Origin: Microcoleus vaginatus PCC 9802
GTDB lineage: Bacteria > Cyanobacteriota > Cyanobacteriia > Cyanobacteriales > Microcoleaceae
Reading direction: 5' to 3'
DNA: 64,000 nucleotides
Assembly (NCBI GenBank): GCA_022701275.1
Contig: CP031740.1
Span: 2,553,001-2,617,000, forward strand
Position numbers and translations under genes: made by a program. Below are positions 13,046-16,644 of this stretch, piece by piece; within the stretch, counting starts at the first letter, position 1, and each line of letters begins with the position of its first letter. The notes beneath the pieces were generated by a model. It was not told the DNA's origin and made no database searches. It saw nothing but the letters and a program-made list of their open reading frames with translations.

Positions 13046-14452
13046 ATGCCCACCTCGATCGCCGACTCGAAAAATCTGCTGTCAGACTTAATGGCACGCT
13101 ACCGGAACCAAGTCGATTATCTGGCAATTCGACTCGAAGAAGCCGAAGGCACCGACATCCTGCTGCGGGGCGAAAAAATTGAAACCCTCAGCGAAGGAGT
13201 CTCAATTGGCGGCCAAGTCAGAGCTTGTCACAAAGGCGGCTGGGGCTTTGCCAGTTTTAACCGACTTTCCACCCTCGCCGAAAGAATCGAAGAAGCCATC
13301 GCGGCAGCCAAACTGATCGGGGAAGAAGAAACGATTCTGGCGCCTGTCACCCCAATACAAGACATTTGCTTGCTGCCGCTGACAGGAACAGACCCCCGTC
13401 TGGTTCCCCTAATTGACAAAAAGCAATTGTGCGATCGCTACGCGGCGATTCTCCGCAGCATTGACCCCCGCATCGCCACAATCTCCGTGCGCTACGGCGA
13501 CAGCACCCAGCGGATGCTCCTGGCCACCTCCGAAGGCACCATGCTCGAACAAGGTTGGGCAGACATGGAAATGCGCTTTGCAGCCACCGCCCGGAGTGGG
13601 GAAACCGTACAAACCGGCCGCGAAACCACCGGTTCCCGCAAAGCCTACGAAGATTTAACCGATCTCGATGTTCAAGTTCGCAGCGCCGCCCAGAGAGCCG
13701 TAGATTCCCTAGCCTTACCCCCCGTCCAAGGCAACACCTACACCGTCGTCATTGACCCGATTTTGACCGGATTGTTCGTCCACGAAGCCTTCGGACACCT
13801 TTCCGAAGCCGACATGGCCTACGAAAATCCCGACATCTTGGAAATTATGACCCTCGGTCGCCAGTTCGGTCCCAAAAACTTGCAAATTTTCGACGGTGCA
13901 GCGCCAGAGGGACACCGGGGCAGCTATTTCTACGACGATGAAGGCACTCCGGCGACTACTACTCAGTTAATTAAAGACGGCGCTTTAGTCGGGCGGCTGC
14001 ACTCGCGGGAAACTGCTGGCAAGTTGGGAGAAACGCCTACTGGCAATGCTCGCTGTTTGAATTATCATTATCCGCCAATCGTCCGCATGACGAATACTTG
14101 GATCGAACGGGGTGACACGCCAGTTGCTGACTTATTTTCTGGTATCAAAGAAGGAGTTTATGCGCGCAATTGGCAAGGCGGCATGACTAACGGCGAAATG
14201 TTTACTTTCAGTGCGGGCGAAGCTTGGATGATCCGCGACGGAAAACTAGACAATCCGGTGCGCGATGTTACTCTTTCGGGTAATGTTTTCACCACTTTAG
14301 CTGATATTGAGGCGATCGGCGACGATTTCTACTGGGATGAATCCGGCGGCTGCGGCAAGGCAGGACAAAGCGGTTTGCCCGTGGGGTGCGGCGGCCCGAG
14401 TTTGCGGATTCGCGATGTCGTTGTTGGTGGCGAAGCTGCGGAAGAAGATTAA
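13046..14452 (+). CDS. tldD: TldD/PmbA family metallopeptidase
   Basis: A 468-residue TldD-type protein. The zinc-site helix HEAFGHLSEAD (HExxxH, about residues 244-254) is intact, followed by the family segments DEGTPATTTQLIKDG near 300 and NYHYPPIVRMTNTWIERGD near 342. In other bacteria TldD and TldE (PmbA) form a heterodimeric protease that trims modified peptides and takes part in gyrase-inhibitor processing. No second family member is in this window, so the partner must be elsewhere. The start at 13046 matches the family N-terminus, though no ribosome binding site is evident. A strong hairpin terminator follows 14 bases after the stop. Confidence 0.93.
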   Translation: MPTSIADSKNLLSDLMARYRNQVDYLAIRLEEAEGTDILLRGEKIETLSEGVSIGGQVRACHKGGWGFASFNRLSTLAERIEEAIAAAKLIGEEETILAPVTPIQDICLLPLTGTDPRLVPLIDKKQLCDRYAAILRSIDPRIATISVRYGDSTQRMLLATSEGTMLEQGWADMEMRFAATARSGETVQTGRETTGSRKAYEDLTDLDVQVRSAAQRAVDSLALPPVQGNTYTVVIDPILTGLFVHEAFGHLSEADMAYENPDILEIMTLGRQFGPKNLQIFDGAAPEGHRGSYFYDDEGTPATTTQLIKDGALVGRLHSRETAGKLGETPTGNARCLNYHYPPIVRMTNTWIERGDTPVADLFSGIKEGVYARNWQGGMTNGEMFTFSAGEAWMIRDGKLDNPVRDVTLSGNVFTTLADIEAIGDDFYWDESGGCGKAGQSGLPVGCGGPSLRIRDVVVGGEAAEED

Positions 14453-14466
14453 AGCTTCAAAAGTTT

Positions 14467-14519
14467 AAAAAATAAAGGTAAAGCGCCAGATTCCTACTCG
14501 CGCTTTACCTTTATTTTTT
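14467..14519 (+). terminator. Strong factor-independent terminator after tldD
   Basis: Perfect 20-bp arms (14467-14486 and 14500-14519), containing AATAAAGGTAAAGCGC and its complement, around a 13-base loop and ending in a T-run. The A-run on the 5' arm and T-run on the 3' arm suggest it could also work in the opposite direction. The rest of the 307-base gap to the next gene is A/T-rich with no gene seen. Confidence 0.85.
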
Positions 14520-14759: not shown

Positions 14760-14969
14760 TTATCTCCCCCCGCCTCGGTCTGGCGGCTCATTTTTATCGT
14801 TATCTGCATCTGCGTCAAAGGTCGGAGTGTCGGCTAGAGTGGTTAAAATTTCGGGAGCAGAGTTGTCTTGAGCAAAAAAGGTCGATCGAGTTTCTAAGCT
14901 TTGAGCGTTAACTGCGGTGCCGCTCAGTAATAGGCTTGACATCAGGATGGAAGAGTAAAGGCGCATCAT
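14760..14969 (-). CDS. patX: Small exported PatX-like protein ending in RGGGR
   Basis: A 69-residue protein. A signal peptide is clear: MMRLYSSILMSSLLLSGTAVNA then QS, with an A-x-A-like cleavage site near residue 22. The mature part is short and acidic (DADADND) and ends in EPPDRGGGR immediately before the stop. This layout, an export signal, a short acidic linker and a terminal RG-x-GR pentapeptide, is that of the PatX family, described in filamentous cyanobacteria as a source of an RG(S/T)GR-type peptide that acts with HetR. Here the middle residue is Gly instead of Ser or Thr. The ATG could be 14969 or 14966. No hetR, hetL or hetF is in the window. Function in a non-heterocystous species is unknown. 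Confidence 0.75.
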   Translation of the reverse strand: MMRLYSSILMSSLLLSGTAVNAQSLETRSTFFAQDNSAPEILTTLADTPTFDADADNDKNEPPDRGGGR

Positions 14970-15243
14970 AAATTTTGGTGTTTGTATTTTCCCCTTCTTG
15001 ATACGCAGTCTGTACTCGGCTATCAGGATAAAAAAAATAATTGCGGTGAAATCATCAATTAGTAAGTAAGGGCACCTGCAATTTTTTTGAGTTTTGGTTA
15101 AAAGCGGGTGAAATCCATCATCTAGCTCGCTTGTTCGCGGATAATTTCTAGTTATCTGCTACTGGCGGGCAACCATCTGAATTCAAGACCATGTTCAAAA
15201 AAAGAATGCTACTCTATGCCCGTGTTCCCAACCGTGGTAGTTA

Positions 15244-15906: not shown

Positions 15907-16644
15907 TCAAATCTCACAGCGATTGACTTGCACATCTACCTGCAGGAATAGCGAGTCGAGGGTGGACGAGTTGTCCAAAATAACATCAGCTTGTTGACAT
16001 TTTTGAGCTAGCGGCAACTGAGTGTTAATGCGGGCCTGAGCTCGATCGTAACTCAAGCCGTCTCGCTGCATTAGGCGTTCTAACTGCACTTCGGGTGAAC
16101 AGTACACCACCCAAATTTCGGTACACAAGTCAGTCATATTAGCTTCAAACAGCAATGGCACTACTAAAACCAAAGTCAAAGTGTCAGTGGGGGCGCAGAA
16201 ACCGGAGTTTTTTTCAACAATTCTTCGTTCTAGGTTTTGATTGCGGTGAAAAAACCTGGTTTCTTGAGTTTTTGTACCTAAATTCTGTGTGTCCTGGGAT
16301 ACGGGAGTCAATGCCGCAATGCCGCTTTGAGTTTCCTCAACAAATCTGCGACGCACGTAAGGGTGAATCTGTTGTTCCAACCACTGGCGCTCCGCTGGGT
16401 TACAAAAAATAATACTTCCCAACTCTGGCCGATTTAAAGTGCCGTCGGGGAGCAAAATACCGGCGCCGTATCGTTCTACAATAGAGTCAAGTATTGGCGA
16501 ACCGGGGTTCACAGCTTCGCGGGCGTAAATATCGGCATCTAAAATCGGAAATCCACAGGTATCTGCCAGATAATTAGATATAGCGGTTTTACCGGTGGCT
16601 ATGCCCCCAGTTAAACCAATCAGACGCACAATTCGATCGCTCAT
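15907..16644 (-). CDS. coaE: Dephospho-CoA kinase with an in-frame insertion
   Basis: A 245-residue enzyme for the last step of coenzyme A synthesis in the cytoplasm. The P-loop LTGGIATGKT is at residues 11-20, the DAD motif near 36-38, and the late motifs VVPLLFE near 161-167 and RIN(T)QLPLAQK near 205-215 are present. The family is normally about 200 residues. The extra length is one block of about 42 residues (about 113-154) between the HPYVRRRF helix and the VVPLLFE strand. It contains KTQETRFF and repeat-like DNA (GAAACCAGGTTTTTTC), so it looks like an inserted repeat rather than a domain. AGAGAA precedes the ATG at 16644. The gene stands alone, divergent from the haemagglutinin-CHAT gene. 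Confidence 0.93.
   Translation of the reverse strand: MSDRIVRLIGLTGGIATGKTAISNYLADTCGFPILDADIYAREAVNPGSPILDSIVERYGAGILLPDGTLNRPELGSIIFCNPAERQWLEQQIHPYVRRRFVEETQSGIAALTPVSQDTQNLGTKTQETRFFHRNQNLERRIVEKNSGFCAPTDTLTLVLVVPLLFEANMTDLCTEIWVVYCSPEVQLERLMQRDGLSYDRAQARINTQLPLAQKCQQADVILDNSSTLDSLFLQVDVQVNRCEI
16183..16308. repeat. Repeat-derived in-frame insertion within coaE
   Basis: About 126 bases (42 codons) that have no counterpart in the usual CoaE fold. The DNA includes AAACCTGGTTTCTTGAG, close to the AAACCCGGTTTCTTGAG word at 46601-46617 between ktrA and a hypothetical gene, which ties it to a dispersed repeat family of this genome. Boundaries are approximate. Confidence 0.6.

Follow-up and report, generated by a model that had tools for sequence, protein, structure and literature searches.

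The window, by which we mean the whole stretch of 64,000 nucleotides analysed here, comes from a filamentous soil cyanobacterium and contains a small gene, patX-A, whose 69-residue product ends exactly in DRGGGR. By descent this gene belongs to the PatX family, and we consider it rather probable that it is a PatX paralogue which, in the Microcoleus vaginatus-type clade, has lost its tie to the HetR circuit. Decoupling from HetR, rather than a new lineage-wide peptide specificity, is our best reading of the locus, whose features are the following:

14760..14969, minus strand: patX-A, 69-residue PatX-family precursor ending in DRGGGR, ATG at 14969, TAA at 14762-14760
14904..14969, minus strand: signal-peptide-like N-terminus of patX-A, residues 1-22, MMRLYSSILMSSLLLSGTAVNA, read from the sequence
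14781..14903, minus strand: linker of patX-A, residues 23-63, acidic near its end, read from the sequence
14763..14780, minus strand: C-terminal hexapeptide DRGGGR with the stop codon directly after it, read from the sequence
15020..15028, minus strand: putative promoter-like element TCCTGATAG, 59 bp upstream of the patX-A ATG
15105..15119, minus strand: degraded HetR-type palindrome GATGGATTTCACCCG, at -150 from the patX-A ATG
13046..14452, plus strand: tldD, encoding a TldD/PmbA-family metallopeptidase, convergent with patX-A and conserved beside it by synteny
14470..14516, no strand assigned: 17-bp inverted repeat with a T run, terminator-like by its sequence, between the convergent tldD and patX-A
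15907..16644, minus strand: coaE (dephospho-CoA kinase), conserved upstream neighbour of patX-A in the genus by synteny

A preliminary description of this DNA had proposed the small reading frame as an exported PatX-like precursor, and both the frame and the family assignment held. Residues 2-69 of the protein (MMRLYSSILMSSLLLSGTAVNAQSLETRSTFFAQDNSAPEILTTLADTPTFDADADNDKNEPPDRGGGR; terminal codons GAC CGA GGC GGG GGG AGA TAA) match the NCBIfam model NF047413 ('heterocyst-inhibiting protein PatX') with E = 5.1e-16 and 59.2 bits, at a model cut-off of 30 bits, which rules out a chance open reading frame; a Pfam search with the same protein returned no match. The N-terminus, likewise noted before, is kept in relatives and has a composition typical of a Sec-type signal peptide, as judged from sequence and constraint, and the linker is weakly constrained. 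The published PatX motif is RG(S/T)GR (PMC7761841; PMC12756182), to which the RGGGR of patX-A does not conform, so that on its sequence we regard the gene as a PatX member by descent and not in the sense of the published motif. The glycine at the variable position, to which the preliminary description had drawn attention, is indeed unusual. A literature search for RGGGR and cyanobacteria, whose reach did not extend to Elhai and Khudyakov (2018), found no paper.

The same description had tied the peptide to HetR, and the complete source genome (6,698,371 bases) does contain hetR, as a single HetR_C gene (E = 3e-40). A second PatX gene, patX-B (MQTYTAIALLSLLGITLSASAAQALESSLPMVETATAQYMLSAQTQQKRERGPERGSGRRNLTEPNVYTHPLQDF), lies about 0.8 kb upstream of it; here the hexapeptide ERGSGR is followed by a 16-residue tail. 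This rules out the RGGGR copy as the only PatX of the genome; patX-A is a hetR-unlinked paralogue, not the main PatX. Across the genus Microcoleus, patX-B is found just upstream of hetR, and the hexapeptide of the hetR-linked PatX has a pN/pS of 0.00 over 13 Microcoleus copies. Two clade members, G039 and G024, carry patX-B in tandem near hetR (loci L071 and L074), with one copy reading ERGSGR and the hetR-proximal copy damaged (QKGDGR and QSGSGR). In the stretches read, patX-A has no hetR nearby, and it sits between tldD and coaE in most Microcoleus members; tldD adjoins patX even in another genus of the family, g10. We considered the product of the convergent tldD as a processing enzyme for PatX-A, but adjacency is a weak clue here, because TldD is a cytosolic enzyme and the patX-A product is predicted to be exported. 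The inverted repeat at 14470..14516, between the two genes, was not picked up by a terminator scan.

Of the 30 Microcoleus genomes, 27 have an orthologue of patX-A, and orthologues that agree with it in start, length and signal-like N-terminus are spread over the genus. Outside the window's clade the ending is ERGSGR in 19 of 20 genomes and ERGTGR in one. The clade itself comprises seven genomes, with a support of 92/93 in the hetR tree and of 100/100 when the tree is built from the patX-A gene without its motif plus its upstream region; its endings are DRGGGR in the window's own genome, ERGSGR in G013, NRGEGR in G024, RPGDGR followed by KDKA in G025, ERGEGR in G034 and G039, and ERGTGR in G037. 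Since the exact RGGGR end thus occurs in the source genome alone among the 27 orthologues, it is not a lineage-wide trait. The preliminary description had further suggested that RGGGR might define a distinct specificity of non-heterocystous filaments. The comparison does not support this idea: close relatives carry ERGSGR at this locus, patX-B of the source genome also reads ERGSGR, constraint on the hexapeptide and the upstream HetR site are lost in exactly this clade, and the peptide contacts of HetR show no matching change. What close relatives do share with the source genome is the signal peptide and hetR, not the RGGGR ending.

The hexapeptide has lost its constraint in the clade and the signal peptide has not. 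In pooled pairwise comparisons, the hexapeptide has a pN/pS of 0.02 in the genomes outside the clade, compared to 0.74 in the five clade members without Ser or Thr at the variable position; for residues 1-23 the corresponding values are 0.26 and 0.27. On the hetR tree, eight of the ten inferred hexapeptide changes fall inside the clade, whose share of the branch length is 13% (binomial P = 3e-6, to be taken as a guide, as the comparison was chosen after the pattern had been seen and the pooled ratios reuse branches). Positions 1 and 4 account for seven changes, compared to 2.1-3.1 expected under neutrality (P = 0.006-0.04), while the two Arg and two Gly positions together show one, compared to 3.2-4.6 expected, a shortfall that is not significant; clustering alone therefore does not separate decay of the hexapeptide from its retuning.

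A second loss is seen upstream of the gene. An intact GGGN5CCC element precedes patX-A in all 20 genomes outside the clade, mostly as GAGGGGTTTTACCCC some 150 bp before the ATG (106-194 bp over all of them), and in none of the seven inside. The HetR site of the hetP promoter reads GAGGGGTCTAACCCCTC, with GGGnnnnnCCC as the minimal form and a conserved A two bases before the GGG (PMC4192349; PMC4649674); we judged the palindromes by this Anabaena HetR consensus, from which we also infer their role in Microcoleus. The window's copy reads GGATTTCACCC, with GGA in place of GGG, and other broken palindromes of the clade include GATGGATTTCACCAG, GATAGATTTCACCAG, GAGGGGTTTCAGCTG and GAGGGGTTTTATCCG. 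Their halves have decayed differently between the genomes, and the sequence of events is not readable from them. GGGN5CCC occurs by chance about 10 times per 64 kb in the window, the same as in shuffled sequence; at this density, its presence at one place in 20 of 20 genomes is not a chance effect, although these genomes share ancestry. Within 400 bp upstream of the source genome's own patX-B there is no GGGN5CCC. In a genome of genus g7 (G006, locus L039) it is patX-B, not patX-A, that has a HetR-type palindrome, GAGGGGTTACACCCC at -168, together with TCCGGA at -59, suggesting that HetR control may have switched between the paralogues. The promoter-like element TCCTGATAG is present upstream of patX-B as well. 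A PatX gene would be expected to have a DIF1 (TCCGGA) promoter and NtcA/HetR-dependent expression. In the patX genes of Nostocaceae, and in several others, DIF1 lies at about -61 to -64; it is absent from the 400 bp upstream of patX-A, where TCCTGA at -59 differs from it by one base in a similar place.

The receptor shows no corresponding change. In the structure of HetR with the PatS6 peptide, Glu253 bonds the Ser and both Arg residues, Asp270 and Asp278 bond Arg, Glu254 and Asp256 hold the N-terminal amine, and Arg223 holds the C-terminal carboxylate (PMC4649674). With residue numbers transferred via 4hri, the solved HetR closest to that of the source genome, we found Glu253, Asp256, Asp270, Asp278 and Arg223 retained. 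At residue 254, the sole pocket difference, every one of the 30 Microcoleus HetR proteins has Thr, where Anabaena and the other genera aligned have Glu. As E254T also occurs in Microcoleus beside ERGSGR, nothing in HetR changed together with RGGGR, and an adaptation of HetR to this ending is ruled out. Replacement of Ser by Gly would remove one side-chain bond, and the Glu that sister species carry there would be expected to repel Glu253.

Taken together, these observations suggest that patX-A arose as a second, HetR-controlled source of an RG[S/T]GR inhibitor. In the ancestral mode, which sister species would still retain, HetR would bind the palindrome 150 bp upstream and patX-A would be expressed; the precursor would be exported via its signal peptide and cut by an extracytoplasmic peptidase, such as PatP (Alr1666) in Nostoc, and the C-terminal ERGSGR would enter neighbouring cells and inactivate HetR there. 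The lineage of the window has a broken HetR palindrome, and Gly in place of the Ser that contacts Glu253. The product is probably still exported, whereas the DRGGGR peptide should bind HetR more weakly, and HetR inhibition would then rest on the hetR-linked patX-B, in which ERGSGR is kept.

Several points speak against decoupling. No clade genome has a stop or frameshift in the gene, and its signal peptide is still constrained; the role of the palindrome is read from the Anabaena consensus, and its halves decayed in different ways. With Gly, a single side-chain bond is lost, so that binding of RGGGR to HetR may still be good. In addition, the hexapeptide changes gather at positions 1 and 4, which may reflect selection of another amino acid and not decay. 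This last point leads to a reading in which RGGGR, and RGEGR in sister species, are selected, retuned ligands under HetR-independent control, acting as weaker or differently acting HetR peptides or as ligands of another receptor. The RGxGR frame, which six of the seven clade genomes keep while most changes sit at positions 1 and 4, is consistent with this, as are the retention of the promoter-like element at -59 and of the signal peptide, and the precedent of g10, where a DRGGGR copy is under constraint (pN/pS 0.14 for the hexapeptide) in addition to HRGSGR (0.00) and KRGDGR (0.19) copies. However, nearly every clade genome has a different ending and one has no motif at all (RPGDGR followed by KDKA), the peptide contacts of HetR are unmatched both in the clade and in g10, and each genome has one HetR_C gene, and we therefore regard retuning as possible but unlikely.

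Alternatively, Gly might simply be tolerated, patX-A being a neutral allele of a working PatX that does the same job as an ERGSGR PatX under other regulation. Ser contributes one side-chain bond, and the backbone and both Arg contacts would be unaffected by its loss (PMC4649674); moreover, Thr works at the variable position, HRGTGR binding with a Kd of 88 nM (PMC12756182). But a hydroxyl residue at this position in 20 of 20 genomes outside the clade (19 Ser, one Thr), at a pN/pS of 0.02, indicates that other residues are normally selected against, and sister species carry Glu, with its expected repulsion of Glu253; neutrality of the exchange is accordingly improbable in our view. Finally, the gene could be on its way to a pseudogene, with no function left. 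The palindrome and the constraint on the hexapeptide are lost, whole-gene pairwise dN/dS reaches 1.4 in close pairs, and G025 has lost the motif; yet a stop or frameshift in patX-A was found in none of the seven clade genomes, and the signal peptide remains constrained at a pN/pS of 0.27, arguing against a plain pseudogene and making this the outcome to which we give very little credence.

Most Microcoleus genomes have two or three PatX matches. Such matches were found in 45 of 62 genomes of the family and in 207 of 391 genomes of the order, non-heterocystous families often having two or three copies and Nostocaceae mostly one. Nearly all endings read in the order are RGSGR, the others being RGTGR, RGNGR and RGCGR, and SRGGGRRN in one genome. 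In genus g10, eight of ten genomes have a tailed copy with DRGGGR (L032, L034, L041, L042, L043, L046, L053, L054), and the third type of copy reads KRGDGR or LRGDGR; all peptide contacts of HetR are kept in this genus, with no change matching DRGGGR. Judging from constraint on the g10 copy, altered RGxGR endings can be stable, so that the general idea of a lasting alternative ending may still hold. As carriers of a new peptide code, the g10 copies with DRGGGR and KRGDGR are more promising than the window gene. Among genomes with a PatX copy in which x is neither Ser nor Thr, 15 of 17 also have an RG[S/T]GR copy, the exceptions, in which such a copy was not found, being G050 (a 73% complete assembly) and G167. 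In filamentous cyanobacteria, several PatX copies that differ in their RGxGR endings might each carry a signal of their own, or might bind a single HetR, some strongly and others weakly, with the window's HetR-freed RGGGR and the DRGGGR and KRGDGR of g10 as such channels, an extension that we hold to be doubtful.

Precursors with repeated motifs were also observed. In G146 (family f8), a PatX-like, predicted exported precursor (L225/L175) contains well over 10 tandem copies of (D)GRGSGRIKSDFQSF and resembles a multi-copy peptide hormone precursor; further copies in this genome read PHRGSGR (L226) and SRGGGRRN (L157), and its HetR (L198) has Asn for Asp278, a short hood insertion, PKESN, and, close to the C-terminus, a long insertion that is acidic and rich in proline. 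PatX-like proteins with about two to eleven RGSGR repeats occur in several families (L129, L130, L140, L145, L149, L154, L169, L171, L178), and by sequence the multi-copy RGSGR precursors appear to form a class in filamentous cyanobacteria. One PatX (L056, G002) carries the motif twice, as RGSGR within the protein and as HRGSGR close to its end; in genus g8 (L080, L083) the inner motif reads QGTPR or EGTPR and the outer alone is intact, as if the motif had moved.

The role of HetR and PatX in filaments without heterocysts is an open question, for which one genus here offers a natural experiment. Outside one clade, a second PatX has a HetR-type site and a near-invariant ERGSGR; inside it, the site is lost together with the constraint on ERGSGR, and the hetR-linked copy is intact. 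This joint loss links the HetR-type site and the peptide functionally, from sequence alone, and the comparison predicts that the key residue of the peptide is the serine contacting Glu253. Microcoleus thereby provides paired species for testing.

Like PatX of Anabaena/Nostoc PCC 7120 and the rest of the family, patX-A encodes a small, predicted exported precursor with a C-terminal RGxGR in a genome with hetR, and it matches the NF047413 model over its whole length. It differs from published PatX in reading RGGGR rather than RG(S/T)GR, in having its motif at the very C-terminus, without a tail, and in lying apart from hetR, as an extra copy in a genome with an ERGSGR PatX. PatS and HetN of heterocyst formers share an RGxGR peptide as the presumed signal, and the PatS motif is also C-terminal, but, in contrast to PatX, their cleavage is described as probably cytoplasmic (PMC12756182). 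A parallel in a non-heterocystous filament is the patX-hetR pair of Leptolyngbya BL0902, in which patX lies beside hetR, as patX-B does, and in which the effects of deleting patX looked largely independent of HetR (PMC11298460). While that patX is hetR-linked, patX-A of the window lies apart from hetR, as an extra copy whose ending has changed.
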